Source of the DNA: Mycolicibacterium madagascariense
Lineage (GTDB): Bacteria; Actinomycetota; Actinomycetes; Mycobacteriales; Mycobacteriaceae
Length of the DNA: 64,000 bases
Reading direction: 5' to 3'
Assembly: GCF_010729665.1 (NCBI RefSeq)
Contig: NZ_AP022610.1
Location: forward strand, 1,488,001-1,552,000
Every line of letters starts with the position of its first letter. The stretch's first letter is position 1. This document shows positions 20,612 to 57,633 of the stretch, piece after piece. A program made the translations under genes and the position numbers. The notes below the pieces were generated by a model. The model saw only the letters and a list, made by a program, of their open reading frames with translations, made no database searches and was not told the origin of the DNA.

Positions 20612-20614
20612 CGC

Positions 20615-20935: not shown

Positions 20936-20950
20936 GGGTCCACCTCCTCA

Positions 20951-21012: not shown

Positions 21013-21020
21013 GGGATGAC

Positions 21021-41879: not shown

Positions 41880-43145
41880 GTGACACGCTGGGATCGGGCG
41901 GCTCGCTGGCGTGCCTGCGCGATCGGCCTGGCCGTGGCGGTCGTCCTCGCAGGCTGCAGTTCGAGCGCCCCGCCGCCGCAGCCGACCCTGCCGTCGCGGA
42001 CACTGCAGCCCGCGTTCAGCGGCAGTCCCGTGCTGCCCGCGCCCAACCTGACCGACGACGGTCCCGGCTCGGTCATCGAGTCCAAGCCGCTGGCCGACCA
42101 CGCGTACTTCGACCAGGTCAACGCGACGGCCGTGCGGGTCGTCTACCGCTCCACGACCGGTGCCAACGGGCCGCCGAGTCAGGCGTCGGCCGTGGTCGCG
42201 GTCCCGCCGGGGCCGCCGCCCGCCGGGGGCTGGCCGATCCTGGTGTTCGGGCACGACGTGACGGGCGTCGCCAACAAGTGCGCGCCGTCGCTGGCGCCCG
42301 GCCTGGCCGGCTACTCGTCGTTCATGGGGGTCATGCTGTCGCGCGGCTACATCGTCGCGCTCGCCGACTACCAGGGGCTCGGCATCGACGGACAACCGCC
42401 GCACTCGCTGATCGACGCGGCGACGCTCGGCAACAACCTGATCGACGCCGCCCGCGCCGTGCGCCGGGTGACCGACACCGCGAGCACCCGCTGGGCGGCC
42501 TTCGGATACGGCGAGGGTGGCACCGCCGCGTGGGCGGCCACCGAACGCGCACCCAGCTACGGCGGTGGCCTCGACCTCGTCGGCGCCGCCGCGCTCACCC
42601 CGCTCGCCGACCTCTCGCCGCTGGCGACCGAGGCGCTGGACGGCACGCTGACACCCGAGCAGTTCAAGTTGCAGATGCTCGTCGTCGAGGATCTCGCCCT
42701 GACCGCGAACCTCAACCGCGACGACTTCCGCTCGGGTCTGGCCAAGGATCGGTGGGACCTGCTGATCGACTGTGCCCCAGCCGATCCCAGCGTCGTGCCC
42801 GACCTGTACAAGCAGCTGCGCCCCGCCGACCTGCAGCCGTCCAGCCCCGCCGCCGCCGATCAGCTGCGCACGGCGCTGAGCAATGCCGCCCTGCCGCTGA
42901 ACACCCCGACGCCGCCGGTGGCCCCGCTGCTGGTCATCTACAGCACCGACGACCCCGCGGCCCCGGTCGGCTTCGTGACCGGACCGCTGCGCCGGGCGTG
43001 CGTGGCCGGGGCGCCGATCGAGATCGTCACCAAGGTGGGCGACACGCAGACCACGACGGACCTGACCGTCCAGTACGCCCTGGACTGGCTGCAGAACCGG
43101 TTCGGGGGCGAAACGCTCGCCAGCACCTGTCAGGGGGTGGCGTGA
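41880..43145 (+). CDS. Secretory-lipase-family lipoprotein, catalytically degenerate
   Basis: 421 residues. A lipoprotein signal ends LAGC (C26), so it should be anchored outside the membrane. The alpha/beta-hydrolase of the secretory lipase family is recognised by ADYQGLG (about 163-169), CAPS and the C-terminal RAC. The nucleophile elbow reads GYGEGG where relatives have G-x-S-Q-G-G, so Ser is Gly211, and the KGH histidine site has become KVGDTQ. It is probably a non-catalytic binding or scaffold protein. GTG 41880 (or TTG 41877) starts 4 nt after the Wzz/kinase stop; its stop overlaps the second Wzz gene. This places it between two chain-length regulators. Confidence 0.85.
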   Translation: MTRWDRAARWRACAIGLAVAVVLAGCSSSAPPPQPTLPSRTLQPAFSGSPVLPAPNLTDDGPGSVIESKPLADHAYFDQVNATAVRVVYRSTTGANGPPSQASAVVAVPPGPPPAGGWPILVFGHDVTGVANKCAPSLAPGLAGYSSFMGVMLSRGYIVALADYQGLGIDGQPPHSLIDAATLGNNLIDAARAVRRVTDTASTRWAAFGYGEGGTAAWAATERAPSYGGGLDLVGAAALTPLADLSPLATEALDGTLTPEQFKLQMLVVEDLALTANLNRDDFRSGLAKDRWDLLIDCAPADPSVVPDLYKQLRPADLQPSSPAAADQLRTALSNAALPLNTPTPPVAPLLVIYSTDDPAAPVGFVTGPLRRACVAGAPIEIVTKVGDTQTTTDLTVQYALDWLQNRFGGETLASTCQGVA

Positions 43146-43807
43146 GACCGCCGCGGGACGCCCCGCAGATCCGTGACTACGGACGGCTGCTGGCGCGCTT
43201 CTGGGTCGTCGTCGTGCTGGCGACCGCGCTGTCCGCCGGCGCGGGATGGCTGGTGTGGCACCACGAGCGCAATTACGTCGCGTCGCTGAAGTTCCTGGTG
43301 GTGACGCCGGGCGGAGCAGAGCCGTTCGACGCGTTCTACGGAAACCTCACCGCGATGTCGCGCGCGCTGACCTACGAGTCCCTCGCCCACGACCCGAAGG
43401 TCCTGCAGCGCACCGAGGACGAGTTGGGCGCCGACCGCGGCGGGCAGACGCTCGTCAAGGGCATCACGGTCGTCCCCTCGACGTCGGCGGTGTTCGACGT
43501 CCTGGTGGCGGCCGCCGAACCCGAGGCGGCGAAGAACGCCGCGAACACCCTGGGGCGCAACATGATTGCGGCGTCGGACGCGTTGCAAAAGGCCGATCCC
43601 GAGGCCGCGGGGCTGGTACTGGTCGATCCGGCCAACGACGCCGCCGACGCCAGGGGACCGGCGTCCTCGGTGATGCTCACCGGGGCCCTGCTCGGACTCG
43701 TCAGCTCCGTGGTGCTGGTGCTCGCCTACGGGTTGGTGCTGAATTCGGTCGACGACCGCAGGCAGGTCGCGCGCATCGTCGACGTCGTCCGTCGAGGCAC
43801 TGCATGA
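43142..43807 (+). CDS. Second, short Wzz-like chain-length protein
   Basis: 221 residues with two hydrophobic segments (about 21-37 and 178-200) enclosing a periplasmic region. IRDYGRLLARFWVVVVLAT at the start resembles the Wzz domain of the preceding gene, but no P-loop domain follows. It probably forms part of a polysaccharide co-polymerase complex with the 525-residue Wzz protein. GTG 43142 overlaps the upstream lipase stop, and the stop overlaps the next lipase ATG (ATGA), so lipase, Wzz and lipase are translationally coupled. Confidence 0.75.
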   Translation: MRPPRDAPQIRDYGRLLARFWVVVVLATALSAGAGWLVWHHERNYVASLKFLVVTPGGAEPFDAFYGNLTAMSRALTYESLAHDPKVLQRTEDELGADRGGQTLVKGITVVPSTSAVFDVLVAAAEPEAAKNAANTLGRNMIAASDALQKADPEAAGLVLVDPANDAADARGPASSVMLTGALLGLVSSVVLVLAYGLVLNSVDDRRQVARIVDVVRRGTA

Positions 43808-45192
43808 GACGATCGAGCCCGCGCCGTGCGCTGGCGTTGACCTGCGGTGCGCTGCTGGTGTCCGGCGGCGTCGCCGCGTGTTCCTCGGACACCGACACTG
43901 CGCCACCGGGACCCGCTGTGCAGCAAGGCATTTCGCTTCCGGGTGACTTCAGTGGGACCGGTCCGGGAACGCTGATGACGGCCACCACCCTGCCGACCCT
44001 CGACCGCAGGCTGACGGCCGTCACCTCGGTCGCCGCGCGCATCACCTACGAGTCGAAGTCCGGCATCGACGGCAGTCGCACCACGGTCAGCGGCACGGTC
44101 TTCGAGCCCAAGGGCGCACCGCCGGAGGGCGGCTGGCCCGTCATCGCCTACGGACACCCCACGACGGGCATCCACGAGCAGTGCGCACCGTCGGAGTCCT
44201 CCGACCTCAGCGGGTTGTCGCCCGTGGTGGCCGAACTCGTCAAGGCGGGCTACGTGGTGACGCTGCCGGACTACCAGGGCCTCGGCGTCACCGGTTCCTA
44301 CCACCCCTACCTCGACGCCACCACGGCGGGACAGAACCTCATCGACGCGGTGCGGGCCGCCCGCAAGCTCGTCACCACGACGTCGGATCGCTGGCTCGGC
44401 ATCGGGGTGTCGCAGGGCGGTCAGGCGACGTGGGCCGCCAACGAACTGGCGCCCACGTACGGCGAGGGGCTGACGTTGGAGGGCACGGTCAGCGTCGCGC
44501 CCCCCACCGATCTCACCGGCTTCGCCGACGCCGCCGCCGACGGCACCCTCGCCAAGGAGCAGGAGGCGCCCTACGCGTTCGTCCTGGATTCGTTGAGTCG
44601 GGAGTACCCCGACTTCGACCTCGACCAGTACCGCCACGGCGTGGCCGAGGACAAGTGGGACGTGCTGACGGCGTGCGACGGCCCGGCGGCCGGGCAGGTG
44701 GACACCGTGCTGACACAGCTCACCCCCGACGATCTGCGGCCGAGCACGCCCGCCGCGCTCGACGCGCTGCGGGGCTACCTACAGAAGGCGAGCCTGCCCC
44801 AACGGCCAACGGCGGCACCGATGTTGGTGATCTACGGCGGCATGGACGCCGTGGTCCCGCCGATCTGGACCGACCGCGCGCTGCAGGCGGCCTGCAAGCT
44901 GGGCGACGTCGTCGACATCCGGCTGCAGAACGACAAGGGACACGACGACGTGGACGCCTCCGCGGCGTACCCCTGGATCAACGACCGGTTCGCCGGGGTG
45001 CCGCCGACGGACAGTTGTGCGGCGTTCCTCGCCGCGGGCGAGACACCGGAGCCGACGCCCGGTGAGACACCCGCGGAGACGACCACCGACACGTCGGGGG
45101 ACGGCACCGCGGGACAGACCGGCGGCACGGGACAGACCGGCGGGCAGTCGACTACCGAGACCGCCACCCAGGCGCCGGCCGCTGCGGGCTGA
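43804..45192 (+). CDS. Secretory-lipase-family lipoprotein, triad intact
   Basis: 462 residues. Lipobox VAAC at residues 23-26 follows a short signal. The catalytic triad is visible: S203 in GVSQGG, Asp in IYGGMDAVV and His in DKGHDDVD. DYQGLG and the CAPS/TAC/AAC/DSC cysteines mark the family. A low-complexity Thr/Gly/Glu tail of about 45 residues (PTPGETPAETTTDTSG onward) may be a surface or wall linker. The likely role is hydrolysis or transfer of acyl groups at the cell surface; the substrate is unknown. Coupled to the short Wzz gene; converges with the double-lipase gene, stops 2 nt apart. Confidence 0.87.
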   Translation: MRRSSPRRALALTCGALLVSGGVAACSSDTDTAPPGPAVQQGISLPGDFSGTGPGTLMTATTLPTLDRRLTAVTSVAARITYESKSGIDGSRTTVSGTVFEPKGAPPEGGWPVIAYGHPTTGIHEQCAPSESSDLSGLSPVVAELVKAGYVVTLPDYQGLGVTGSYHPYLDATTAGQNLIDAVRAARKLVTTTSDRWLGIGVSQGGQATWAANELAPTYGEGLTLEGTVSVAPPTDLTGFADAAADGTLAKEQEAPYAFVLDSLSREYPDFDLDQYRHGVAEDKWDVLTACDGPAAGQVDTVLTQLTPDDLRPSTPAALDALRGYLQKASLPQRPTAAPMLVIYGGMDAVVPPIWTDRALQAACKLGDVVDIRLQNDKGHDDVDASAAYPWINDRFAGVPPTDSCAAFLAAGETPEPTPGETPAETTTDTSGDGTAGQTGGTGQTGGQSTTETATQAPAAAG

Positions 45193-45194
45193 CG

Positions 45195-47492
45195 TCAGCG
45201 GCAGTCGTCGACCGCCGGCTGATTAGCGAATCTCTGCATCAGCCAATCGAATTGGTCGCCGACCCCGAGGTCGACGTGACCCCGGCCCGGTTCCTCCCGC
45301 CACGCGATGACGTCGCCCATCGCGCACGCCCGCTGGAGTGCCGCGGTAATGGACGCCGGGGTGATCAAGGGGTCGTCGGAACCGTAGATCACCGACATCG
45401 GGGCCGACAGCGGCCGCTGGGGCAACGCCCAGCGGCGCAGGAGTCCGCGGAGCTCGTCGGCGGCCGCGGGCGTGGCGGGCGCCAGGTCGAACGCGCCCAG
45501 CTCGGCGGCGGCGCTCTCACGGGCGAGGACGTCGGCCCCCGCGCACCCCGACAGCGCATCCCAGTCCTTGGCGGCCGACCCCCGGCGCAGGTCGTCGAGG
45601 TCGAGCTCGGGATGCAGACGACTCAGCGAGACCAGCGCCCACTGCAGGGCCAGCGCCTGGTCCTTGGTCAGCGTGCCCGCGGCGGCCTCGTCGACCAGGC
45701 CGGTGACGTCGGCCGACGGCGCCAGCGCGACGGTGCCGACGAGTCGCAGTTCGGGGGCGTAGCGGTCGGCCTGCTCGTTCGCGGCCCAGACCGCCCCACC
45801 GCCCTGGGAGTGCCCGATCGCGGCCCACCGCGTCGAGACGCCGGGAAAGGTCGCCCGCAGCGCGCGCATCGCGTCGATGACGTTGAGGCCCGCGGTCCGC
45901 GAGTCGGGAAAGGGATGCACCCCGTCGGTGCCGAGCCCCTGGTAGTCGGGGAAGGCCACCGCGAAGCCCGCCCGCAGCGGCCCGGCGACGGCGCCCGCCT
46001 GCCCCATGAGGTCGGGGGAAAGCGAAGGCGCACAAGGCTGTTGGATGCCGGTGGTGCCGTGGGCGACGACGATCGCGGGCCATCCGCCATTCGGCGGCGC
46101 ACCGCTCGGGACGAAGACCGCACCGGACACGATGGTGGGGGCGCCGGTGTCCCCGTTGGTCGAGTGGTAGACGACGCGGGCCGCCCTGGCCCCGGTCGCC
46201 GCGATCTCGTCCGCGAGATTGGTCAGGGGAGCGGTGCTGACGACCGCCCCCGCGTCCGGGGCGCCGGTGATGCCCGACGCGCAGTAGTCCGGCGCGGGAC
46301 GGCCCGCGAAACGGTCGGCGAGCCAGGCGATTTGGCTGGTGTCGTCCACGTCGGGAATACCCCGGCGCGCACCCGGATGCCACACCACGCTGCCGCCGAG
46401 CGAGCAGGCCCGGTTGATGGCGTCGGACGTCCATCGCGCATCGACCGCACTTCCGTCGGGTTCGACGACGACCGATAGCGGTACCGTCAGGGGAGCCCGG
46501 GGGAGGGCGACGTCCTGCAGCATCCCGCGCAGCCGGGCGGCGGCGTCGTCGCCGGCCGGGGACAGGTCGTGCGGATCGACGTGGGCGAGAATGTCGTTGC
46601 GCGAGTTGGTGATCGGGCCCGAGCACGCCGTCAGTGCAGCCCAGTTCGCGGCGACCACCCCGCGGCGGTAGTCGTCGAGGTCGACGTCGGGATGCCGGCG
46701 CCGCAGCGATTCGAGCAGCCACAGCAGCATCGGCGTCTGCTCGCGGGTCAGCGTGCCGGCGACGGCCGCGTCGACGAGACCGGTCACGTCGGCGGTCGGG
46801 GAGATGGCCACGGCGCCCACCATGTGGAGTTCGGGCGCGCGCGACGGGGCCTGCTCGGCGGCCGACCACACCGCGGCTCCACCTTCGTCGCGTCCGGAGG
46901 CGGCCCAGCGGTTCGACACGTTGGGGAAGGTCGCGCGCAGCGCGCGCACGGAGTCGATGACGTTCATCCCGGCGGTGCGGGCGTCGAGGTACGGGTGGAC
47001 CCCGCCCGCCCCCAGGCCCTGGTAGTCGGTCAGGGTGACCGCGTACCCCAGCCGCAGGAACCCGGCCACCAGCGGCGCCCGGCCGAGCAGCACGCTCGAC
47101 GACGACGGGCCGCAGGAGTCGTCGATCCCGGTGCTCGCGTGACCGATGGCCACCACGGGCCAGCCGCCGGGTGGAGCCTGACCCCTGGGCACGAAGACCG
47201 CACCCGACACCACGGTCGGGGACCCCGAGCCGTCCGTCGACCGGTAGACGACACGCGCTGAATTTGCGCCGTAGTCAATGGAGGGGCTGATCCGCGGCAT
47301 CGTGGTGGCGCTCAACAGGCTACCCGGGGCCGTGCCGCCGAGGCGGGCGGAGCGAATCGGCATGGGGTCGACCGCACCCCCGAAGGCGGCCCTACCCGTG
47401 ACCACGACCAGGACGCCCGAGGCCGTCAGCAACGCGCAGCACAGCACTGCCAGCGACCAGCGCCACGCTCCGTTCCGGCCCGGTGACCGCAA
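45195..47492 (-). CDS. Tandem double secretory-lipase-family protein (dead + intact domains)
   Basis: About 765 residues. A single N-terminal hydrophobic segment (about 10-32) serves as signal/anchor. Two complete family domains follow, about 45-405 and 415-765. The first reads GRDEGG at the elbow (Asp202 for Ser) and RRGIPDVD where the His should be, so it is inactive. The second has S562 in GHSQGG, Asp in YGSDDP and His in GRGHVDLG. Both retain DYQGLG and the paired cysteines. The TTG at 47492 is proposed from a GGGGGA a few nt upstream and the position of the signal; the frame stays open to 48929 but that would run over the divergent lipase. The start is uncertain. Confidence 0.8.
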   Translation of the reverse strand: MRSPGRNGAWRWSLAVLCCALLTASGVLVVVTGRAAFGGAVDPMPIRSARLGGTAPGSLLSATTMPRISPSIDYGANSARVVYRSTDGSGSPTVVSGAVFVPRGQAPPGGWPVVAIGHASTGIDDSCGPSSSSVLLGRAPLVAGFLRLGYAVTLTDYQGLGAGGVHPYLDARTAGMNVIDSVRALRATFPNVSNRWAASGRDEGGAAVWSAAEQAPSRAPELHMVGAVAISPTADVTGLVDAAVAGTLTREQTPMLLWLLESLRRRHPDVDLDDYRRGVVAANWAALTACSGPITNSRNDILAHVDPHDLSPAGDDAAARLRGMLQDVALPRAPLTVPLSVVVEPDGSAVDARWTSDAINRACSLGGSVVWHPGARRGIPDVDDTSQIAWLADRFAGRPAPDYCASGITGAPDAGAVVSTAPLTNLADEIAATGARAARVVYHSTNGDTGAPTIVSGAVFVPSGAPPNGGWPAIVVAHGTTGIQQPCAPSLSPDLMGQAGAVAGPLRAGFAVAFPDYQGLGTDGVHPFPDSRTAGLNVIDAMRALRATFPGVSTRWAAIGHSQGGGAVWAANEQADRYAPELRLVGTVALAPSADVTGLVDEAAAGTLTKDQALALQWALVSLSRLHPELDLDDLRRGSAAKDWDALSGCAGADVLARESAAAELGAFDLAPATPAAADELRGLLRRWALPQRPLSAPMSVIYGSDDPLITPASITAALQRACAMGDVIAWREEPGRGHVDLGVGDQFDWLMQRFANQPAVDDCR

Positions 47493-47912
47493 TCCATCCC
47501 CCCATCCTGGCCCTTTGCCGACGGCCAGCCACACCGGCGCGGATGGTGACACGCGCCGGAAAGGTCGCCAGCTTACTTCGCCTGGCGCCGTGCGGTCCAC
47601 ACCTGGCGCGTGCGGCGACGACGTGGCCGCCCCGGGCAGCCGCGGTCGTCGGCCGCGGGGGCGACGGCCCGCGCGCGGGCCCCGCCGCCACCCGTGGAGC
47701 ATTCCTAGCCGAGCTAAGGAATCGCGCCGCGAAGCCACCGGCACGGCTGCCCGGGCGCGCGCGGGATGCGCCGACTGCTCCCGTCCGCCCTGCGCGGCGA
47801 CTTTGCTGAGTCGGTGGCGCCTTGCGAGAATGAGGAATGCCCCCCACCCAGTACGCGACCGAATCGAGTGAGGGCCTGGCGGCTCGTACCCCCGGCGGTG
47901 CTGGCGCGTCGG
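47493..47912. other. Gap between divergent lipase genes
   Basis: 420 nt, very GC-rich around 47620-47700. I see no convincing gene, repeat family or RNA structure. It must contain the promoters for the leftward double lipase and the rightward lipase. No clear -10/-35 could be picked. Confidence 0.4.
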
Positions 47913-49151
47913 ATGCGTAGGACGCTGCTGTGGGCCGGTGGCGCGGTGGTCACGGTGATCGTGGTGGTCGTCGCCCTGCTGGCCGTGCCCGCCCTGCACT
48001 CGATGGTCGACCAGCTGGTGCACGGCGACCAGTCGTCGTTGGCCGGAACGCCCCCGACGCCGATCAGCACCGCCACCCTCGGCGGCACGACGCCCGGCAC
48101 GCTGATCAGCGCGATGTCGATGCCCGACGTGACGAGCAGCGCCCTGGGACGGGACCTGCAGGCGGCGCGCGTCGTCTACCGGTCGACCGACGGCGACACC
48201 GGCCGGCAGACCGAGGTCTCCGGAAGCGTGTTCACCCCGCGCGGCGATGCGCCCAAGGGCGGCTGGCCGGTGGTCTCCTACGGCCACGGCACGACCGGCA
48301 TCGACCCGACGTGTGCGCCCTCGGCGTCGAATACCCTGCTCGGACAGCTGGAATTCGTGGCAGGGGTGGTGCACGCCGGCTACGCGGTCGCGTTCACCGA
48401 CTACCAGGGCCTCGGCCCCGGCGGGCCGCCGGCGTACCTGGATTCGCGCACCGCCGCCTTCAACATGATCGACGCCGTTCGGGCTCTGCGGGCGACGTTC
48501 CCCGGGGTGTCCACCCGCTGGGGCGCCTTCGGCGGCTCCCAGGGTGGAGGCGCGGCCTGGTCCGCCGACGAACAGGCCCACGTGTACGCACCGGAGCTGA
48601 ACATGGTTGGTGCCGTGGCGATCTCGCCGGGAGCGGACATCTCCGGCTACGTCGACAAGGCCCAGGCGGGCACCTTGACCAGCGATCAGAAGGCCGTGCT
48701 GCAGCTGTTCATCGAGTCGCTGGCCCGGCGCTATCCCAATGTCGATCGCGACGACTACCGGCGCGGCGACGTCGCCCGCGACTGGAACACGCTCTCGGCG
48801 TGCACCGGTCCGCTGGTCGCCGGACGCACCGCGGCCATCGACGCGATCGGGCCGTTCGACCTCGCGCCGAGCACACCGGAGGCGGCCGCCGCCCTGCGCC
48901 AGAAGTTCCAGCAGTGGGCGCTGCCCCAATTACCGCTGTCGGCACCGCTTTCGGTGACCTACGGGGGCAAGGACACCTTCATCGACCACCAGTGGACGGC
49001 CGACGCGATCGCGCGGGCGTGCGCCCTTGGCGACACCATCGACATCCACTACGGGCCCGACCTGAAGCACAGCGAGGCAGACTTTCCCGCCGAGGTGACG
49101 TGGCTGGCCGATCGTTTCGCCGGCAAGCCGGCGCACAACGATTGTCCCTGA
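47913..49151 (+). CDS. Membrane-anchored secretory-lipase-family hydrolase
   Basis: 412 residues from ATG 47913. One hydrophobic segment (about 5-28) anchors or exports it; there is no lipobox. The triad is S209 in GGSQGG, Asp in TYGGKDTFI and His in DLKHSEAD. DYQGLG and CAPS, SAC, RAC, NDC cysteines are conserved. GTG 47868 upstream is an alternative start adding 15 residues; neither has a strong ribosome binding site. It is a close paralogue of the 52899 and 56371 products. It converges on the alkaline-phosphatase-like gene. Acyl ester hydrolysis at the cell surface is inferred. Confidence 0.83.
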   Translation: MRRTLLWAGGAVVTVIVVVVALLAVPALHSMVDQLVHGDQSSLAGTPPTPISTATLGGTTPGTLISAMSMPDVTSSALGRDLQAARVVYRSTDGDTGRQTEVSGSVFTPRGDAPKGGWPVVSYGHGTTGIDPTCAPSASNTLLGQLEFVAGVVHAGYAVAFTDYQGLGPGGPPAYLDSRTAAFNMIDAVRALRATFPGVSTRWGAFGGSQGGGAAWSADEQAHVYAPELNMVGAVAISPGADISGYVDKAQAGTLTSDQKAVLQLFIESLARRYPNVDRDDYRRGDVARDWNTLSACTGPLVAGRTAAIDAIGPFDLAPSTPEAAAALRQKFQQWALPQLPLSAPLSVTYGGKDTFIDHQWTADAIARACALGDTIDIHYGPDLKHSEADFPAEVTWLADRFAGKPAHNDCP

Positions 49152-49172
49152 GCGTGTTTCGCTGACCGGTCG

Positions 49173-50621
49173 CTAGCCGCGCTGCGCGGCGGCGTGTACC
49201 GAGAACAGGGTGGGCGAGCCCTGCATCTGCGGACCCGACTCCACGCCGAGGACGTTCACCAGCAGTGAGGGAGCGACGTCGAGCACGTCGACCTCGCGGC
49301 GCGAGGCGTCGGGCGGCAGGCCGCCACCCACGGCGACCAGGATGCCCTCGGGCACGTGGTAGCCGGTGTTGTCGCCGCCGACGCGCGGACGGAAGCTCAG
49401 CCCCACCTCACCGGGCGTGCCGGTGACCGGAGCCGTCGCGCCGATGGGGGTGAACTCGAGCCGGGTCGACATGTCGCACGCCTCGTCCGCGAGCGGAATT
49501 CCGAACGTCACCGTCTTGCCCTCGACCCTGAAGCGACTGAAGATCGGGCTGCCGCCCTCCGCCGTGACCGACTCCAGCGGCGCGAGCGCCTCCTGGGCGG
49601 CCGCCTCGTCGTCGAAGACGAGCGCGACGTGCGGGTACATCGTGCGGCCCAGTTCGGCGGGCTTGAGGCCCAGCCGCGACACCAGGCGTTCGTGGTCGTC
49701 GAGGATGAACAGGCCACGGTCGGTGAAGTTGCTCTCGACCGGGCCCTGTCCCATGCTGGCGGCGATGACGAGCACCGTCTCCGGATGCTTCTTGAGCCAC
49801 CGGCGGATGCGTCCGAGCTGGTCGTCGGCGAAGTCCATCGCCTTGATGATGAAGCTGCCGAACACGTCGTCGGCGACGTAGTCGTTGGCGTCGGTGTAGC
49901 CGGGCATCGTGTCACCCCAGAAGCGGTGCATCATGCTCGCGACGTGGTTGGTGAAGAACACGCTCAACCGTGGCTGGTTCTTCTTGTAGAGCCGCCAGAA
50001 CAGGTCGAAGCTCGGCAGCACCTGCATCGACGGGCGCAGTGACTTGTACCGCGCATCCTTCTGCTCGCTCACCAGGTGGCTGGCCAGCGTGACGGCCGAC
50101 TTGGGCGTTAGGCCGAGCTTGACCAGGTCGACACCCGTGCCGAGGAGCGTCTTGACGTTCAGCGGCGCGTCGGAGGTGAAGTTGTTGTCGCTCGTCATGG
50201 AGAGGTTGAACTCTTGGAACCGCTGCAGCGAGCTCGGGTAGGTCTTGCCGTCCTTGGCGAACGTGTCGGGGACGAAGAAACCGCCGCTCTTGAACGGGCG
50301 CGGCGGCCAGCTCTGCAGCGGGCCGAACAGTCCGACGCTCAGCCCGGCACGCTCGGCCACGTCCCACAGCGGCTCGCCGCGGAAGGACGCGGGGTCCTGG
50401 CCGAGGTCGTAGGAGTTGTGGTCGTACATCGAGGTGTGGAACGTGGGCCACGTCCGCCACGGCTGCAGATCGTCGGATTCGATGACGGTCGTGAGGGATT
50501 GGCCCTCCGCGACGAGCGCGGCCAGGTGTGACTCCGGGCGTCGAGAGACGTAGAAGTCGACGACGCTCCACGGCACCTCGTTGAGCTCGTAGAGGATTAC
50601 GTTTCGCGTCTGGCTACCCAT
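49173..50621 (-). CDS. Alkaline-phosphatase-superfamily-like protein lacking metal motif
   Basis: 482 residues, apparently cytosolic. The overall layout resembles type I phosphodiesterase/nucleotide pyrophosphatases: N-terminal VILYELNEVPWSVVDFY, TWPTFHTSMYDH, FFTNHVASMMHRFWGD, then late AGGL-type repeats. The metal-binding GxDG reads ELNE and the SDHG box reads ASMGQGP, so the usual two-metal site seems absent. Similar proteins occur in polysaccharide clusters; I do not assign an activity. ATG 50621 is chosen because AGAGGAAA precedes it by about 5 nt, whereas ATG 50639 abuts its site. Likely cotranscribed with the hexapeptide acyltransferase 181 nt upstream. Confidence 0.65.
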   Translation of the reverse strand: MGSQTRNVILYELNEVPWSVVDFYVSRRPESHLAALVAEGQSLTTVIESDDLQPWRTWPTFHTSMYDHNSYDLGQDPASFRGEPLWDVAERAGLSVGLFGPLQSWPPRPFKSGGFFVPDTFAKDGKTYPSSLQRFQEFNLSMTSDNNFTSDAPLNVKTLLGTGVDLVKLGLTPKSAVTLASHLVSEQKDARYKSLRPSMQVLPSFDLFWRLYKKNQPRLSVFFTNHVASMMHRFWGDTMPGYTDANDYVADDVFGSFIIKAMDFADDQLGRIRRWLKKHPETVLVIAASMGQGPVESNFTDRGLFILDDHERLVSRLGLKPAELGRTMYPHVALVFDDEAAAQEALAPLESVTAEGGSPIFSRFRVEGKTVTFGIPLADEACDMSTRLEFTPIGATAPVTGTPGEVGLSFRPRVGGDNTGYHVPEGILVAVGGGLPPDASRREVDVLDVAPSLLVNVLGVESGPQMQGSPTLFSVHAAAQRG

Positions 50622-50802
50622 CGTGATTTCCTCTTCCATCCCCTGATCGGTCGTGGAATCAGGCTAGCACGCAGCGCAGACGCTTTTCAGGTGAGCGTTT
50701 GACCAGCGCAAGGCGTTGGGGGAGAACGGAAGACGAGACGTGCGTCACGTCCGCGCAGTGCGCCGCAAGACGCAGCGATGGCAAACGAACGGCGCCCGTG
50801 GA

Positions 50803-51258
50803 TCAGCGAACGCCGACCTTGCGGGCCGGGATGCCCGCCCAGATCTCGCCGTCGGGCACCGAGCAGGTGACCACCGAGTTGGCCCCGATGATGGCGCCGC
50901 GCCCGATCCGCACCGGACGCTCGCTGCTGGACAGCACGACGGCGTTCGCGCAGAGCACGGCGTCGTCCTCGATGATCGCGTGGAAGTCCGGCTTCTCGGC
51001 GACCCAGATGTCCGCGCGCCCCACGGTGACGCCCTGGAAGATCGCGACGTTGCGACCGAGGGTGGCCCGCTGGTGCACGACGATGCCGATCCCCCCGTGC
51101 GGCAACAGCAGTCCCGGCGCGGTGAGCACCGAGGCCGGAATGTTGGTTCCGCGGAGCAGCAACAGCAGACGAATGACCTTGCCGAGGACCGGCCAGCGCT
51201 GGGCGTACACCAGACGGCTGATGAACCCCGCGGATGGCGCGTCGGCAGTCTTCCCCAT
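50803..51258 (-). CDS. Serine-acetyltransferase-like hexapeptide acyltransferase
   Basis: 151 residues. Left-handed beta-helix with HGGIGIVVHQRATLGRNVAIFQGVTVG and IGRGAIIGANSVVTCSVPDGEIWAGIPARKVG, as in CysE/colanic-acid-type acetyltransferases. It is much shorter than true CysE because it lacks the N-terminal helical domain, so sugar O-acetylation is more likely than serine acetylation. ATG 51258 (GGGA upstream) is preferred over TTG 51294. It precedes the alkaline-phosphatase-like gene on the minus strand and is divergent from the membrane acyltransferase. Confidence 0.82.
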   Translation of the reverse strand: MGKTADAPSAGFISRLVYAQRWPVLGKVIRLLLLLRGTNIPASVLTAPGLLLPHGGIGIVVHQRATLGRNVAIFQGVTVGRADIWVAEKPDFHAIIEDDAVLCANAVVLSSSERPVRIGRGAIIGANSVVTCSVPDGEIWAGIPARKVGVR

Positions 51259-51630
51259 GACGTCCCACGCTACGGAACCCGCCGACGATCGCAAAATTGT
51301 GAAGGGTTGTTCGCTGCGTCACTCGGCCACGGGAGTCTGCGCTGCGGACGGCGACGTTCGACGGTGCGCGAAAGTGGCTGTTCACCGCTGCGTGGGACCC
51401 GCGGCGGGGTCCGTCGTCGGGCGCCGCGGCTACCGTGACCGGGGCCGAGGACGACCCGCGACGATTTGCCACGGCGGTCCAAAGAGCCGTGGTGCTGTAG
51501 TCTGACCACGTCATGATTCGCTGAATCCGACGGTCCGCCATGCTGATCCGCCGGATCGAACCCAAGGATCCGGTGACGTCATCCAACGACGACAGTGCAG
51601 GCGCCCGGGCGAACGCGTTCGGAGCATTGC
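51259..51630. other. Gap between divergent acyltransferase genes
   Basis: 372 nt with mixed composition, including an AT-richer patch around 51285-51305. No gene, strong hairpin or known operator was seen. Small frames inside it lack ribosome binding sites. It should hold the promoters for both directions. Confidence 0.4.
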
Positions 51631-52902
51631 GTGACCATTCGCTCGCGCCATTCGCGCGTCGCCGGTAAACCCGTCGCCGCACCGCGCACCTTCGGGCGCA
51701 TCATCGGCCTCGACGGCGCCCGCGGCCTGTCGTGCCTGGGCGTCGCGATCGCGCACATTGCTGGCCACTACTCACCGCAGGCGTCGGCCGAGACCAAGAT
51801 CGGGCTCGTCGGCACGACGCTCATCTTCTTCTACGTGCTGAGCGGCTTCCTGCTCTTCCTGCCCTACATCCGCGGGCTCTACGAGGACCGGGACACCGCG
51901 CGGCTGCCGAACACGAAGAACTTCGTCGTGCACCGCATCGCGAGGATCCTGCCCGGCTACCTGGCGATCTTCCTACTGGTCAACTTCGTGTTCCAGGTCT
52001 CCTACGTGCAGAACGCGTCGCTGCAACCGCCGGGCACCGACGCCGGAACCGGGATGATCACCGACCCTTGGCAATTGGCCGCCAACCTGACCCTGACCCA
52101 GTCCTACGTTCCGAAGTTCTTCCAGACGGGCATCAACCCGGCCTGGTCGCTGACGCTGGAGTATGCGTTCTACGCGTCGCTGCCGCTGCTGGGACTGCTG
52201 ATGTACGCCCTGCTGCGGCGTACTCGGCTGTCGCCGACCAGGATCGCGATCATCCCGCCGCTGCTGCTGATCGTCCTCGGGTTCGTGGCCAAGCTGTTCG
52301 TGCCCGCCCTCATCGCGCACTTCGGCATCACCAGCGACGTGCTGCTGAACTGGGGTCCCAACTGGGTGGCGGTCTTCCTGCGCAGCTTCCTGGCCAACGC
52401 CGACAACTTCGCGTTCGGCATGCTGGCCGCCGTCGTCATCGTCCTGATGGAGAAACACCTGCTGCGGGAAGGTCTTTCGCGTCGGGTGCGGCTCTACTCG
52501 ACGATTGCGCTGCTGCCCACCGCGGTCGCCTTCGTCGGGGCGTTCCTGGTGGCGGGCGGCCAGTACCAGACCAGCGCCGTGGCGATCGGTGCGGCGCTGC
52601 TGATCCTCATCATGGTGGCGCCGCTGGCCCGAGGTCAGGACTCGGGCATCGCGCGGGTGCTCGACACCGCGCCCATGCGGTTCGTTGGCAAGGTGTCCCT
52701 GTCGGCGTACCTCTGGCACTTTCCGGTCCTGCTGCTGCTCGGTCGGTGGGGCCTGATGGCGGGGGACACCGTGGGGGGCATGGTCCGCAACCTCGTGGTC
52801 GCCCTCGCCGCGACCATGGCGATCTCGACCGTCACCTATTACCTGGTCGAACGTCCCGCCATCCAGATCACCAGGAAGTACCGCCACCGGTGGGCGTCGT
52901 GA
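51631..52902 (+). CDS. Integral membrane acyltransferase (acyltransferase 3 family)
   Basis: 423 residues with about ten membrane segments. The family signatures are visible: IIGLDGARGLSCLGVAIAHI near the start with its conserved His, FFYVLSGFLLF, HRIARILPGYL, INPAWSLTLEY and the late LSAYLWHFPVLLL. Such enzymes O-acylate sugars during polysaccharide export. GTG 51631 is supported by GGAG 6 nt upstream; GTG 51595 is an alternative. Its stop overlaps the next lipase start (GTGA), coupling an acyl-adding enzyme to a putative acyl-removing or acyl-transferring one. Confidence 0.9.
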   Translation: MTIRSRHSRVAGKPVAAPRTFGRIIGLDGARGLSCLGVAIAHIAGHYSPQASAETKIGLVGTTLIFFYVLSGFLLFLPYIRGLYEDRDTARLPNTKNFVVHRIARILPGYLAIFLLVNFVFQVSYVQNASLQPPGTDAGTGMITDPWQLAANLTLTQSYVPKFFQTGINPAWSLTLEYAFYASLPLLGLLMYALLRRTRLSPTRIAIIPPLLLIVLGFVAKLFVPALIAHFGITSDVLLNWGPNWVAVFLRSFLANADNFAFGMLAAVVIVLMEKHLLREGLSRRVRLYSTIALLPTAVAFVGAFLVAGGQYQTSAVAIGAALLILIMVAPLARGQDSGIARVLDTAPMRFVGKVSLSAYLWHFPVLLLLGRWGLMAGDTVGGMVRNLVVALAATMAISTVTYYLVERPAIQITRKYRHRWAS

Positions 52903-54134
52903 GCCCGAAGCGCCGACGACGGGTCACCGCCTACGTGATCGGTGCGGTCGTCGTCGTCGTGCTCGCCATCGCGATACCGCTGGGGTGGTCGGCCGTCACC
53001 AGCGGCCAGGCCAACGAGGGCGATCAGGCCGCCGCGGCCACGCCCATCGCGTCGGCCACCCTCGGGGGCACCGCCCCCGGATCGCTGATCAGCGCGACGA
53101 CCATGCCGGACTTCGACAAGACCCCGAACGGCAGGCGCCTGCACTCCGCCAGGGTGGTCTACGTGTCGACCGAGGGGGACACCGGCCAGCTCACCAAGGT
53201 GTCCGGCTCGGTCTTCACCCCGCCGGGGCCCGCCCCGGCCGGCGGCTGGCCGGTGGTCGCGCTGGCGCACGGCACCCTTGGCATCGACAACCCTTGCGGC
53301 CCTTCGCTATTCGGCTCGCTGCTGGGAATGGCCGATCAGATCTCCAAGCTGGCCGACCAGGGGTACGCGGTGGCCTTCGCCGACTACCAGGGCCTGGGGT
53401 ACGACGGCGTGCACCCCTACCTGGACGCGCGCACCGCCGGGTTCAACGTCATCGACTCCGTGCGCGCGCTGCGGCACACGTTCGCCGACGTGTCGCCGCG
53501 CTGGGCGGCGTTCGGCGGCTCCCAGGGCGGCGGCGCCTCCTGGGCTGCCGACGAACAGGCCTCGACGTACGCCCCGGACCTCAATCTCGTTGGGGCGGTG
53601 TCGATCTCGCCCGCCGCGGACGTCTCGGGCATCGTCGACAAGGCCCAGGCCGCCACCCTGACCACCGATCAGCGCGCCATCTACGAGATCATCGTGGAAT
53701 CGCTGGCGCGGCTGCATCCCGACGTGAACCGCGACGACTACCGTCGCGGCGACGCGGCCAAGTATTGGGACGTCCTCACCGCGTGCTCGGGCCCCAAGGT
53801 CCACGAACGCTCGATGGTGGCCGGCGACGTCGACCCGCACGACCTGGCGCCCGCGAACGCCGCGGCGGCCGACCGGCTGCGGAACTACCTGGTGAAGTGG
53901 GCGCTGCCGCAGCGCAAGCTGTCCGCGCCGATGGCCGTCGCCTACGGTGGCGCCGATACCTACGTCGACTCGCAGTGGGTGGACAGGGCGATAGCCCGGG
54001 CCTGTCAGCTGGGAGACGTCCTGACGATCACCTTCGAGCCGGGGAAGGGGCACGGCGACGTGGACTTCAACGCCCTGTCGACATGGATGGCGGATCGCTT
54101 CGCGGGAAGGCCGGTGACCAATGACTGTCCCTAG
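52899..54134 (+). CDS. Membrane-anchored secretory-lipase-family hydrolase
   Basis: 411 residues from GTG 52899. Basic start MSPKRRRR then a hydrophobic segment (about 10-33). The triad is S208 in GGSQGG, Asp in AYGGADTYV and His in GKGHGDVD. DYQGLG and the four-cysteine pattern (CGPS, TAC, RAC, NDC) are intact. It overlaps the acyltransferase 3 stop by 4 nt and the SASA esterase start by 14 nt. It is therefore the centre of a four-gene coupled set: acyltransferase, lipase, carbohydrate esterase, DUF218. A role in editing acyl groups on the exported polysaccharide is inferred. Confidence 0.88.
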   Translation: MSPKRRRRVTAYVIGAVVVVVLAIAIPLGWSAVTSGQANEGDQAAAATPIASATLGGTAPGSLISATTMPDFDKTPNGRRLHSARVVYVSTEGDTGQLTKVSGSVFTPPGPAPAGGWPVVALAHGTLGIDNPCGPSLFGSLLGMADQISKLADQGYAVAFADYQGLGYDGVHPYLDARTAGFNVIDSVRALRHTFADVSPRWAAFGGSQGGGASWAADEQASTYAPDLNLVGAVSISPAADVSGIVDKAQAATLTTDQRAIYEIIVESLARLHPDVNRDDYRRGDAAKYWDVLTACSGPKVHERSMVAGDVDPHDLAPANAAAADRLRNYLVKWALPQRKLSAPMAVAYGGADTYVDSQWVDRAIARACQLGDVLTITFEPGKGHGDVDFNALSTWMADRFAGRPVTNDCP

Positions 54135-55005
54135 GAATCCCGACGGCGACGCCGCGCTGTGGAAGATCCTCCTGATGGAGGCCAAGTGTGCGGTCAAGCG
54201 TCGCATCACCCCGGCGGGCCTCCCGGTCGACCCGCCGCCGACGCCGTACCTGATCGTGCCGGTGCTCGGCCAGTCCAACGCGCAGGGCATGGGGGTCGGC
54301 CTCGACCTCGACGGCGAGGACGCCCCGCACCCGCGCGTGCACCAGTGGGCGCGGTCGGGGCCGTCGAAGGGCACGGTGGTGGCCGGTGTCGACCCGCTGT
54401 TCCACGACGTGCGCAGCAAGGGCGTCGGGTTCGGCGTGACGTTCGCCAAGGCGCTCGCCGACGCGACCGGTCGCTGGGTACTGCTGGTCCCGGCGGCGCG
54501 CGGTGACACCGCGTTCACGCCGAAGAACGGCTACACCTGGGATCCGACCGACACCCGTACCAGGGTCAACCTGTACCGCGACGCGGTGGCCTCGATCGAC
54601 GCCGCCCTGGCCAGTCACCCGGGCAGCCAGGTCGCGACCATCCTGTGGCACCAGGGCGAGACCGACGTGCCGCTGATGTCGGCCAGGAACTACCGCGGCC
54701 GTCTCGACTACGTCATCGACGACCTGCGCAAGCGCTACGGCAGCGGCCTGCCCGTCATCGTCGGGGGGATGGTCCCCGAGGAGATGGAACGCGGCCACCG
54801 GCGCTACCCGGTGATCGACGCGGTCCACCGCGACACTCCCAACCGGCGGCCGCGGACGGCGTTCGTGGCGGGCCCCCGCGACGCGATCAACAGCGAGACC
54901 GATCGGCACTACAGCGGGGCCGGGCTCCGCGAGCTCGGACGACGGATGTGGGACGCCTACCGGGGCGTGGCCGCCGACGAGCTGGCGGAGTATGCGACAG
55001 GCTGA
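54121..55005 (+). CDS. SASA-family carbohydrate acetylesterase
   Basis: 294 residues. SGNH-like esterase of the sialate-O-acetylesterase/CE6 type: block I GQSNAQGMG with nucleophile S52, WHQGETD in the middle, and DAINSETDRHYSGAGLRELG near the end, which supplies the Asp and His. It would remove O-acetyl groups from sugars. No clear signal peptide is seen, although an uncleaved hydrophobic start is weakly possible. ATG 54121 overlaps the lipase stop by 14 nt and its own stop overlaps the DUF218 start by 14 nt. That overlap pattern implies strict coexpression. Confidence 0.85.
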   Translation: MTVPRNPDGDAALWKILLMEAKCAVKRRITPAGLPVDPPPTPYLIVPVLGQSNAQGMGVGLDLDGEDAPHPRVHQWARSGPSKGTVVAGVDPLFHDVRSKGVGFGVTFAKALADATGRWVLLVPAARGDTAFTPKNGYTWDPTDTRTRVNLYRDAVASIDAALASHPGSQVATILWHQGETDVPLMSARNYRGRLDYVIDDLRKRYGSGLPVIVGGMVPEEMERGHRRYPVIDAVHRDTPNRRPRTAFVAGPRDAINSETDRHYSGAGLRELGRRMWDAYRGVAADELAEYATG

Positions 55006-55567
55006 CCTCCGCCGCGTCGCCCTCCTCCTAACCACGATGTTGGTGACGGTGCTGGTCGCCAACGGCGTCATCGGCTTCCTGGTGTTCAGCCGGGCGTCCA
55101 GCGACCGCGTCGAACCCGCCGACGCCGTCATCGTGCTCGGCGGGGAGCACGACGGCCGCGAGGCCTACGGGTTCGAGCTGGCGCGCGCCGCGGGGGCGAA
55201 GACCGTGGTGCTGTCGGACCCCTACGGACCGGGTGACCCGGTGATGCGCCAGGAGTGCCGTCCGCGTCCCGACGTCGAGGTGATCTGCCGGGCGCCCGTC
55301 CCGTCCACCACCCGCGGCGAAGCCCACCTCATGCACGTGCTGGCCCAGCAGCGGGGCTGGAAGAAGATCATCGTCACCAGCTGGCGGTACCACCTGCCCA
55401 GGGCCAGGCTGGTCTTCGACCAGTGCTACTCCGACGTCCCCGGCGCGGTGATCGTGCTGGCCGTGCCGCGGTCCTACCACCTGTCGTTCGTGCACTGGGA
55501 GCTCATCTACGCCTACCAGTGGGGTGGGCTGATCAAGGCGCTCTGGCAGGGCGACTGCCCGAGTTAG
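54992..55567 (+). CDS. DUF218 (YdcF/ElyC/SanA-like) membrane protein
   Basis: 191 residues. One membrane segment (about 10-32) is followed by an extracytoplasmic DUF218 domain with ADAVIVLGGEHDGRE, STTRGEAHLM and VTSWRYHLPRARLVF. Family members such as SanA and ElyC affect envelope integrity and polysaccharide or undecaprenyl-phosphate use, but no reaction is established. Coupled to the SASA esterase upstream; the stop overlaps the convergent CrcB-like gene by 4 nt. Confidence 0.82.
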   Translation: MRQADLRRVALLLTTMLVTVLVANGVIGFLVFSRASSDRVEPADAVIVLGGEHDGREAYGFELARAAGAKTVVLSDPYGPGDPVMRQECRPRPDVEVICRAPVPSTTRGEAHLMHVLAQQRGWKKIIVTSWRYHLPRARLVFDQCYSDVPGAVIVLAVPRSYHLSFVHWELIYAYQWGGLIKALWQGDCPS

Positions 55568-55947: not shown

Positions 55948-56318
55948 GCGGTCGGGTCGTCCACCCGACGGGCCCGGCTGCCCACCAGCGCCATGCCCGC
56001 GGTCACCGTGAGCGCGGTCAGGAGCGGGACCGCCACCAGGAACGTCGCGCTCGCGACGATCCGGTGCGTCACCCCGAAGAAGGCGTAGAGACTCAGGCTC
56101 GCGGTGCTGGTGCCCGCGCCGAGGGCGAAGGCGGCCAACCGCCCCGTCGGCGCCCCGAGGGCCAGCCCGATCACGAACCCCGCGACCACCGACGCGATGC
56201 CGAACCCGATGAGCGGCTGCACCGGACCCGAGCATTCGTCGAGCACGGCCTGGCGGATGACGGCCCCGACACCGGCGCCGCCCACCACGAACGGCAGTCG
56301 TGGATCGGATCCCGGCAT
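55944..56318 (-). CDS. CrcB-like small membrane protein, first of pair
   Basis: 124 residues, four hydrophobic segments. VVGGAGVGAVIRQAVL near the start matches the CrcB GG..GA..R motif, and ALGAGTSTASLSLYAFFG corresponds in position to the GFlGtlTTFS segment but is diverged. ATG 56318 follows a GGGG. It is the upstream gene of a two-gene leftward unit that overlaps by 4 nt. Both proteins lie wholly inside the polysaccharide island, next to lipase genes. Confidence 0.6.
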   Translation of the reverse strand: MPGSDPRLPFVVGGAGVGAVIRQAVLDECSGPVQPLIGFGIASVVAGFVIGLALGAPTGRLAAFALGAGTSTASLSLYAFFGVTHRIVASATFLVAVPLLTALTVTAGMALVGSRARRVDDPTA

Positions 56319-56370
56319 GGCCCCAACACTAGCGAGGCGCCCGGGAGGCGCCCCGTATGGTGAGCGCCAT

Positions 56371-57633
56371 GTGTCGCGACCTCGTCGGCTGCCCATGACG
56401 CGCAAGATCGGGTTGGTCGCCCTCGTCGTCGCGATCGTGGCCGCCGGGATCGCCGCGGTGGCGTCGGCGTCGCCGCTGCTCCTGACCGTCGGCGCCAAGG
56501 TCTACGACCAGTTCTTTACCGCCATCGACGGGCCCCCGACGCCCATCGGCACGGCCGACACCAGCGGCGCCGGCCCGGGCTCCCTGGTGTCGGCGACGAC
56601 GATGCCCGGCCTGGCCAGCACCATCGAGGCCAGGGGGCTGCGGGCGGCCCGCGTCGTCTACCGCTCCACCTCCGGGGACGACGGAGCGCCGACCGTGGTC
56701 TCGGGTTCGGTGTTCACCCCGCGGGGCAACCCGCCCGCCGCAGGCTGGCCCGTCGTCGCGTTCGGGCACGGCACCGTGGGCATCGAACCGCAGTGCGGGC
56801 CCTCGCTGTCGGACTCGCTGGACGGGCAGATCGCCGTCGTGACGGTGCTGACCAACCTCGGGTACGCCGTCGCGGTACCCGACTACCAGGGCCTCGGCAC
56901 CAAGGGCATCCACCCCTACCTCGACGCGCGCACCGGCGGGCTCAACCTCATCGACGCCGTCCGAGCGCTCAAGCACACGTTCCCGCAGGTCACCAACCGT
57001 TGGGCGGCGTTCGGCGACTCGCAGGGCGGCGCCGTGGCGTGGGCGGCCAACGAGCAGGCCAAGGGTTACGCGCCCGACCTCGACCTCGTCGGCGCGGTCG
57101 CGCTGTCCCCGTCGGCGGACGTGGTGGGGCTGGTGGCGAAGGCCGAGCAGGGCACGCTGACGCCCGATCAACGGCCGGCGATGCAGCTGCTCATCGAGTC
57201 GCTCGCGCGGCTGCACCCCGACATCGACCGCGACGACTACCGCCACGGTGCGGCCCGCCAATACTGGAACGCGCTGTCGGTGTGCGTCGGCGATCCGTCG
57301 CCCGCCCGGGCCGAGGGCGCCAAGAGGCTGCTGGGCACCGACTTCGCGCCCGCCAATCCCGCCGCCGCCGACCGGCTGACCGCCGCGCTGCAGGCCTGGG
57401 CGCTGCCGCACCTGCCGCTGTCCGCGCCGCTGTCGGTGTCCTACGGCGGGCGCGACCCGCTGATCGACGCGCAGTGGACCACCGACGCGATCAAGCGGTC
57501 GTGCGCGCTGGGCGGGCAGATCACGATCGCCTTCGATGCGCAGAAGGGCCACGAGGGCGCCGACATCGCCGGTCAGGTGCAGTGGATGGCCGATCGGTTT
57601 GCAGGCAAACCGGCGCCCAACGACTGCCACTAG
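56371..57633 (+). CDS. Secreted or anchored secretory-lipase-family hydrolase
   Basis: About 420 residues from GTG 56371 (ATG 56395 is the alternative). A hydrophobic signal runs about 12-40. The triad is S217 in GDSQGG, Asp in SYGGRDPLI and His in QKGHEGAD. DYQGLG and CGPS, SVC, RSC, NDC cysteines are conserved. The GTG is favoured because MSRPRRLPMTRK resembles the basic start of the 52899 product and a GGTGAG lies 5-6 nt upstream. It is divergent from the CrcB-like pair and followed by a 334-nt gap before the sugar transferase. Confidence 0.85.
   Translation: MSRPRRLPMTRKIGLVALVVAIVAAGIAAVASASPLLLTVGAKVYDQFFTAIDGPPTPIGTADTSGAGPGSLVSATTMPGLASTIEARGLRAARVVYRSTSGDDGAPTVVSGSVFTPRGNPPAAGWPVVAFGHGTVGIEPQCGPSLSDSLDGQIAVVTVLTNLGYAVAVPDYQGLGTKGIHPYLDARTGGLNLIDAVRALKHTFPQVTNRWAAFGDSQGGAVAWAANEQAKGYAPDLDLVGAVALSPSADVVGLVAKAEQGTLTPDQRPAMQLLIESLARLHPDIDRDDYRHGAARQYWNALSVCVGDPSPARAEGAKRLLGTDFAPANPAAADRLTAALQAWALPHLPLSAPLSVSYGGRDPLIDAQWTTDAIKRSCALGGQITIAFDAQKGHEGADIAGQVQWMADRFAGKPAPNDCH

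Follow-up and report, generated by a model that had tools for sequence, protein, structure and literature searches.

The window analysed here, a stretch of 64 kb from Mycolicibacterium madagascariense, contains an exopolysaccharide (EPS) island of Wzy type flanked by accD5 and birA. Within this island six genes encode seven domains of the secretory lipase family PF03583 (LIP). On balance we favor a Wzy-type EPS locus with a built-in, envelope-anchored set of CalA-type acyl-transfer or esterase proteins that would act on the EPS, including a pseudolipase partner. The genes of the locus are:

36542..37630, plus strand, weak Wzx-like flippase (PF01943, 15.3 bits vs cut-off 28.2, E 0.013)
38690..40180, minus strand, Wzy-like polymerase (PF04932, 36.4 bits vs cut-off 31.7)
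40283..41875, plus strand, wzz1, upstream partner of LIP1, Wzz domain and BY-kinase-like ATPase (Wzc-like; profile matches below curated Wzz cut-offs)
41880..43145, plus strand, LIP1, slot A lipoprotein, putative pseudolipase (GYGEG; catalytic column without His)
43142..43807, plus strand, wzz2, Wzz-like without ATPase domain (TIGR01006 E 6.8e-6, far below cut-off; no Pfam match)
43804..45192, plus strand, LIP2, slot B lipoprotein, Ser-Asp-His intact
45195-47552, minus strand, whole double-LIP protein, two PF03583 domains
46245..47552, minus strand, N-terminal part of the double-LIP protein, anchored, LIP domain dead (GRDEG; catalytic column without His)
45195..46244, minus strand, C-terminal part of the double-LIP protein, live LIP domain (GHSQG)
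47913..49151, plus strand, LIP5, slot C, anchored, triad intact
49173..50639, minus strand, type I phosphodiesterase-like protein (PF01663, 21.2 bits vs Pfam cut-off 23)
50803..51294, minus strand, hexapeptide-repeat acyltransferase-like ORF (PF00132, 24.4 bits, under cut-off 27)
51595..52902, plus strand, AT3, Acyl_transf_3 membrane acyltransferase (PF01757, E 9.1e-26)
52899..54134, plus strand, LIP6, slot C, anchored, triad intact
54121..55005, plus strand, SASA carbohydrate esterase (PF03629, E 6e-25)
54992..55567, plus strand, DUF218 protein (PF02698, 31.4 bits vs cut-off 27.6)
56371..57633, plus strand, LIP7, slot C, anchored, triad intact
57956..59458, plus strand, pgt, initiating sugar transferase (PF02397, E 1.5e-66, 223.8 bits)

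Both the initiating sugar transferase (PF02397) and the Wzy polymerase (Wzy_C, PF04932) of a Wzx/Wzy-dependent EPS locus are present. An earlier note on this DNA had described a Wzx/Wzy island with Wzz, acyltransferase, SASA and DUF218 genes; the assignments hold for Wzy_C, pgt, Acyl_transf_3, SASA and DUF218, while Wzx is weak and the Wzz assignments express a kinship below cut-offs (wzz1: 22.5 bits vs 25.5 for PF02706 and 91 vs 108 for TIGR01007; wzz2: 25.7 vs 296 for TIGR01006). Homologues of the phosphodiesterase-like protein occur in three further loci (L014, L024, L075). A Wza-type exporter is an expected part of Gram-negative Wzx/Wzy loci. Searching the whole genome for it returned no PF02563 Poly_export domain, with a control that was positive in 4 of 14 known genomes. 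A plasmid origin was rejected, as the plasmid collection gave no match.

All six LIP proteins score above the Pfam cut-off of 23 bits, with values of 51.8 to 117.9, and a genome search detected ten PF03583 domains, seven of them inside the window and all seven above cut-off. This confirms the six genes and seven domains reported before. The DYQGLG motif and the four cysteines are likewise invariant in 7/7 domains, and a signal or anchor was recognized by eye on every protein: lipoboxes in LIP1 (LAGC) and LIP2 (VAAC) and a hydrophobic N-terminal stretch in the other four. The AF2 model of LIP1 (pLDDT 91) has a CalA-type fold, which places the protein by fold in the CalA/LipA group. For the double-LIP protein the tandem model shows two folded domains with a pTM of 0.55, too low to fix their mutual orientation.

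The catalytic Ser-Asp-His residues are found in five domains (LIP2, LIP5, LIP6, LIP7 and the C-terminal domain of the double-LIP protein). LIP1 and the N-terminal domain of the double-LIP protein have other residues in place of both Ser and His. Judged by these residues, the seven domains would comprise five predicted enzymes and two pseudoenzymes of a CalA-type family. The former designation as seven lipases therefore stands as to family and fails for the two domains that have no catalytic Ser and His; these two had been overlooked.

The overlaps with neighboring genes follow directly from the coordinates and agree with what had been claimed: 4 nt for LIP1/wzz2, wzz2/LIP2 and AT3/LIP6 and 14 nt for LIP6/SASA and SASA/DUF218. 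LIP1 starts after the wzz1 stop with a gap of 4 nt. The order wzz1-LIP-wzz2-LIP recurs in other genomes. We found the 4-nt overlap of LIP and wzz2 in 32 of 43 cases; this count includes duplicates and uses whichever start codon lies closest to the stop of the preceding gene, a choice that favors short distances. Of 49 wzz1-LIP pairs, 48 have a spacing between -20 and +30 nt.

The LIP set is linked to EPS genes well beyond this genome. Of 62 named loci from Mycobacterium sensu lato, Rhodococcus-type, Williamsia and Gordonia, 55 have their LIPs less than 10 kb from a homologue of wzz, wzy, wzx or pgt; these loci are the best 62 of 279 candidate stretches and lean to close relatives. Across 199 genomes sampled evenly from the order, with nine candidates scored per genome, 28 of 40 subfamily domains were EPS-linked (counted by eye). 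Both counts mainly support the earlier expectation that LIP genes repeatedly accompany wzz, wzx or wzy; that they are rarely alone has to be qualified by stand-alone relatives, among them live members at six loci (L036, L041, L043, L046, L047 and L106). Within the genus the cluster is absent from 55 of 58 other genomes sampled. Of these 55, 39 carry another pgt, about nine of them less than 20 kb from birA; making EPS is thus possible without the LIP cluster.

Three lipase slots, A, B and C, form distinct clades spanning genera in a quick tree of 158 rows with long branches. Slot A has a support of 93, not starred, and six rows belong to none of the slots; one plainly wrong genus name was left out of account. 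Thinning was at 80% for live rows but at 97% for dead ones, so that the dead:live ratio of the tree cannot be read as a frequency, and the eight changes counted on the tree are a minimum. LIP1 belongs to a dead clade of 17 rows whose frames are open over the domain. This clade has 87 conserved columns compared to 86 in the live counterparts, and its dN/dS lies within the live range (NG86, 15 chosen genome pairs, dS up to about 1.2). Open frames, dN/dS and column conservation rule against LIP1 as a decaying gene; the dead clade is conserved under purifying selection, and its position between two Wzz genes is constant. A dead lipase kept by selection in many species suggests a dedicated polymer-modifying enzyme set with a dead partner.

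Ser and His are lost together in 31 of 217 distinct domains, a set obtained from 233 by removing domains with <330 aligned residues or without a Ser or His column (leaving 224) and then one of each pair >97% identical. Exceptions are three domains that lost His alone (L054, L056, L070) and one, added later and not among the 217, that lost Ser alone (L095, GNYQG). With duplicates included, 15 of 35 mycobacterial slot A rows are live, as are most of those from the Rhodococcus-type, Gordonia and Williamsia group (14 of 18); a dead slot A partner is therefore not required everywhere. Some of the stand-alone relatives form a second dead clade beside another esterase, a membrane Esterase of PF00756, which is either adjacent or fused. 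The family, which also includes antigen 85, is present in 47 of 59 genus genomes; this weakens it as a cluster-specific partner, and only adjacency and fusion count.

To our knowledge no enzyme of the LIP set has been characterized and no polymer structure is known from a carrier strain. As the earlier note proposed, the polymer may first receive acyl groups, which the LIPs would afterwards edit or transfer. Lipoproteins of slots A and B would be co-produced with both Wzz proteins, and the membrane-anchored slot C copies with AT3 and SASA. Most likely the live LIPs attach acyl chains to hydroxyls of the polymer or shift them from one hydroxyl to another, during growth or after export, presumably on the outside of the plasma membrane; net transfer is somewhat likelier than net removal. 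Slot A in this Mycobacterium branch would have turned into a pseudolipase that kept its fold and probably a binding site, and would serve as a partner without catalysis or as a subunit that holds the substrate. The double-LIP gene may fuse the same dead-plus-live logic in one chain.

A more specific version, which we put forward tentatively, is a polymer-acylation machine coupled to Wzz. Wzz-bound lipoprotein enzymes of CalA type would load fatty, perhaps mycolic, chains onto nascent EPS, by which the mycomembrane could retain the hydrophilic polymer and let it cross without a Wza channel. The conserved pseudolipase between the Wzz proteins would be the dedicated acyl- or chain-binding subunit, and dead LIPs in general might be partner subunits, as in the second dead clade with its membrane esterase.

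It is also possible, if doubtful, that the live LIPs are deacylating editors, with AT3 and the hexapeptide acyltransferase adding groups that LIPs and SASA remove, thereby tuning or releasing the polymer. PF03583, SASA and the alpha/beta fold denote hydrolases by default, LIP genes are frequently near AT3 and SASA, and the fold neighbor 3h2g is named a cell-wall-degrading esterase. However, multiple live paralogues plus a conserved dead copy would exceed the needs of a simple eraser, and CalA, the nearest fold family, is capable of acyl transfer even in water. Action on envelope lipids such as mycolate esters or phospholipids instead of the polymer, loosening or rebuilding the mycomembrane locally for EPS passage, seems unlikely. 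It would suit the lack of Poly_export in the genome, the anchoring of the lipases and the stand-alone dead clade beside the PF00756 esterase, but the cluster LIPs have no visible link to mycolate genes and their tight coupling is to Wzz genes. An ordinary nutritional expansion placed in the island through local duplication is very improbable: LIP5 and LIP6 are sisters within this genome (support 90 in the tree), but the slots are separate clades in the same order across genera, the 4-nt overlaps with wzz2 are conserved, and the dead member is conserved under purifying selection; the syntenic orthology already refutes most of this reading. A random lipase expansion, with paralogues scattered and unlinked to polysaccharide genes, was rejected on the evidence of synteny, slots and overlaps.

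The LIPs share family and fold with CalA-type lipases (Candida antarctica lipase A, Ustilago lipases) and Xanthomonas oryzae LipA (PF03583); unlike these, the LIPs of the window are anchored or lipoproteins, lie in an EPS operon, occupy old paralogous slots and include conserved dead members. The transacylases Chp1 and Chp2 of the M. tuberculosis acyltrehalose and sulfolipid clusters are also anchored alpha/beta hydrolases in an envelope-glycolipid cluster, and Chp2 transesterifies at the periplasmic face (PMC4183827); the available text of that paper mentions no dead paralogue. The Chp proteins belong to another hydrolase family, PF08237; the Pfam scan of our proteins gave LIP and generic hydrolases only. 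They also differ in that a glycolipid and not a polymer is concerned. Wzx/Wzy EPS loci with O-acyl modification by AT3 and esterase have pgt, Wzy, Wzz, AT3 and SASA in common with the window, which differs by the lipase set interleaved with Wzz genes and a genome without Wza-type exporter.

Within the same order, the Rhodococcus EPS FR2, S-2 and SM-1 contain stearic and palmitic acid according to a review (PMC12786566); 'gene cluster', 'wzy' and 'lipase' are absent from the available main text of the review, as is 'lipase' from the available text of an Actinoplanes EPS paper (PMC13390465). Among the matches listed from open-licence literature no paper joined mycobacteria, wzx, wzz and secretory lipase, which is weak evidence of absence; for a pseudoenzyme secretory lipase with Mycolicibacterium EPS or wzy the nearest listed match, which covers these subjects in part, concerns Acinetobacter phage.

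What sets this locus apart from known kinds is a CalA-type set within an EPS operon, interleaved with Wzz and with a conserved dead member included. Translated with Wzz, the LIP set is a concrete and deletable candidate for the passage or retention of a Wzy polymer on a mycolate envelope that has no Wza, and the conserved pseudolipases are well suited to testing what a hydrolase fold can do without catalysis.

PF03583 secretory-lipase (CalA-type) domains, here LIPs, match at ten places in the 5.94 Mb genome, and seven of these lie inside 16 kb. The earlier note had proposed six genes encoding seven domains of one family, and this was borne out by open frames, Pfam scans and alignment. The DYQGLG motif and four cysteines it described are indeed invariant in all seven domains. 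A signal or anchor was likewise found by eye in each protein, as a lipobox in LIP1 and LIP2 and as an N-terminal hydrophobic stretch in the two-domain (double) protein, LIP5, LIP6 and LIP7.

Features of the window:
about 33280-59458, exopolysaccharide (EPS) island, between accD5 and birA/purK
41880-43145 (+), LIP1
43804-45192 (+), LIP2
45195-47552 (-), double LIP protein

The borders birA and purK are Pfam-supported, accD5 is named by eye and position. Pfam scans of the island identified glycosyltransferases, a hexapeptide transferase, Wzy, an Acyl_transf_3 acyltransferase (AT3), a SASA carbohydrate esterase, DUF218 and an initiating sugar transferase (pgt), together with a weakly matching Wzx-like protein. 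Two Wzz-like proteins (wzz1 and wzz2) both score under curated cut-offs, the first having a tyrosine-kinase-like ATPase. On the opposite strand of the gap between DUF218 and LIP7 (55564-56498, -) we noticed two small overlapping membrane-like ORFs resembling a FluC/CrcB pair by eye. They gave no Pfam match worth the name, and their one similar stretch, in locus L034 (40%), is likewise without a Pfam match. Elsewhere in the window, 14718-23440 carries purine breakdown genes including uricase, with neighbours resembling xanthine dehydrogenase, HIU hydrolase and a nucleobase permease by eye.

We determined the neighbourhood of related LIPs at 62 loci of named genomes, which came from the 80 best-ranking of 279 candidate stretches, calling neighbours at a bit score >80 (wzz2 >45) in flanking sequence reaching up to 10 kb. 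As the earlier note had anticipated, the lipases lie near polysaccharide genes: at least one of wzz1, wzz2, wzy, wzx and pgt was present at 55 of the 62 loci, and none of the five at the other seven (L036, L041, L043, L046, L047, L053, L057). Individual counts were 48 for wzz1, 48 for wzz2, 43 for pgt, 37 for wzy, 17 for wzx, 35 for AT3, 34 for SASA and 19 for DUF218. A frequent order, with variations, is wzy(-) wzz1 LIP wzz2 LIP AT3 LIP SASA DUF218 pgt LIP birA purK. In an evenly drawn sample of 199 genomes of the order, own genome included and nine candidates scored per genome, the LIP subfamily (E 1e-60 or better) was found in 13 genomes and clusters of three or more copies in 5. Of the 40 domains of this sample, 28 proved to be in EPS context when counted by eye, four weak cases (L097, L099, L104, L106) being left uncounted. 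The genus of G185 carries the subfamily in 37/37 genomes, with three or more copies within 20 kb in 22/37 (by eye); EPS context was read there for G185 and G117 only.

Gene coupling is tight (counts include window and duplicates): wzz1 is followed by a LIP at a spacing of -20 to +30 nt in 48 of 49 pairs, LIP and following wzz2 share exactly 4 nt in 32 of the 43 pairs, and wzz2 overlaps the next LIP in 33 of 46 pairs, 29 of them by 4 nt. A tree of 158 domains, calculated with trait columns removed, showed three large clades matching gene positions, with six rows outside.

Clades of the LIP tree:
slot A, after wzz1 (holds LIP1), 39 rows, support 93
slot B, after wzz2 (holds LIP2), 42 rows, support 95
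slot C, elsewhere (holds LIP5, LIP6, LIP7), 71 rows, support 99

Each slot includes Mycobacterium-type, Rhodococcus-type, Williamsia and Gordonia members, and lipoboxes (pattern rule) occur in 53/53 slot A, 54/59 slot B and 17/106 slot C domains. The paralogues are therefore old and have been kept apart, lipoprotein versus membrane anchor tracking the slot.

The alignment further revealed what the earlier note had missed, namely that both LIP1 (GYGEG) and the N-terminal domain of the double protein (GRDEG) are without the nucleophile Ser and the catalytic His. The window and loci L009-L090 together supplied 217 distinct complete domains, and the Ser-Asp-His triad is intact in 183 of them ("live"). 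Ser is lost in 31, all of which have also lost His; His alone is lost in three and Ser alone in none. The four cysteines are retained in 31 of these 34 "dead" domains, the fourth column being a gap in the remaining three. Outside this set, L095:9351-10574 (-) has Tyr for the nucleophile Ser (GNYQG) and keeps His. One EPS locus, L066 of Mycolicibacterium sp. 018/SC-01/001, combines two dead LIPs with one live.

LIP1 belongs to a clade of 17 rows (SH-aLRT 100), all dead. Slot A comprises 53 domains when duplicates are counted: of its 35 mycobacterial rows 20 are dead and 15 live, and of its 18 other rows 14 are live; the whole tree requires at fewest eight switches between live and dead. Of 393 columns, 87 are conserved at 90% or more in the dead clade (17 rows) versus 86 in live slot A (29 rows), and dN/dS is 0.07-0.25 in 11 dead pairs versus 0.04-0.37 in 45 live pairs. 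Only the Ser column, Gly in 17/17 dead rows, is switched between fixed residues; drift affects the His column and a Gly that adjoins a conserved His, probably part of an oxyanion loop, with a few further columns loosened. Equal conservation, and dN/dS inside the live range, point to selection keeping the dead clade for a non-catalytic job.

Another dead clade, of 7 rows (SH-aLRT 100), branches within slot B, and none of the EPS query genes was found in the 14-20 kb fetched at its seven loci. At L081, L082, L083, L086 and L087 its dead LIP adjoins a gene for a membrane-anchored Esterase (PF00756), as does a dead LIP at the later locus L103, and at L089:2373-5024 (+) both are fused into a protein of 884 residues; at L084 no Esterase neighbours the dead LIP. 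L014 and L024 carry the same esterase type inside their EPS clusters, and at L015 it is about 9 kb from the last LIP. Since this family is common in the genus (47/59 genomes, seven matches in our own), adjacency and fusion, not presence, are the evidence for pairing. Tandem proteins in which a dead N-terminal domain precedes a live C-terminal one, like the double gene of the window, are also encoded outside EPS loci (L053:8663-11080, L057:7889-10990). Taken with the Wzz-linked cases, dead LIPs therefore recur beside a live hydrolase or Wzz.

Within the genus the cluster was present in 4 of 59 sampled genomes, own included. It abuts birA in all four, and exactly these four have a pgt at least 70% identical. 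Of the 55 genomes without the cluster, 39 contain a pgt (E 1e-60 or better). In about nine of them this pgt is no more than 20 kb from birA, and subfamily LIPs are absent from the site (by eye); in G033, which also lacks the cluster, a subfamily LIP and a pgt (52% identity) are 2-3 kb apart. As the lipase cluster is scarce and other pgt genes are common without it, it marks a single EPS type and is not generally needed. With these other EPS-type sugar transferases 5-20 kb from birA in the roughly nine LIP-less cases, the accD5-birA interval resembles a location where one EPS locus can be swapped for another.

The LIP family, its fold and the EPS pathway are already known; among the matches listed from open-licence literature, none described a conserved lipase set interleaved with Wzz genes and including a pseudolipase clade. 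The earlier note had envisaged a polymer that is acylated and then edited or transferred by surface hydrolases. That live LIPs are editors deacylating the polymer is a serious alternative. We favor envelope-side acyl transfer onto the polymer because of several precedents and because a genome search found no Poly_export domain. CAL-A superfamily enzymes are among those listed as acyltransferases active in water in a section of PMC8402108, and passages of PMC11210130 describe a yeast lactone esterase transesterifying a glycolipid, its authors regarding high-water transesterification as common to CALA. The anchored hydrolase Chp2 of M. tuberculosis transesterifies acyltrehaloses on the periplasmic face according to part of PMC4183827, and stearic and palmitic acid are reported from several Rhodococcus EPS in an excerpt of PMC12786566. 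We infer substrate, direction and partnership: acyl transfer onto the polymer would accompany the Wzz stage in slots A and B and occur next to AT3 in slot C, and the dead protein may act as a binding partner.
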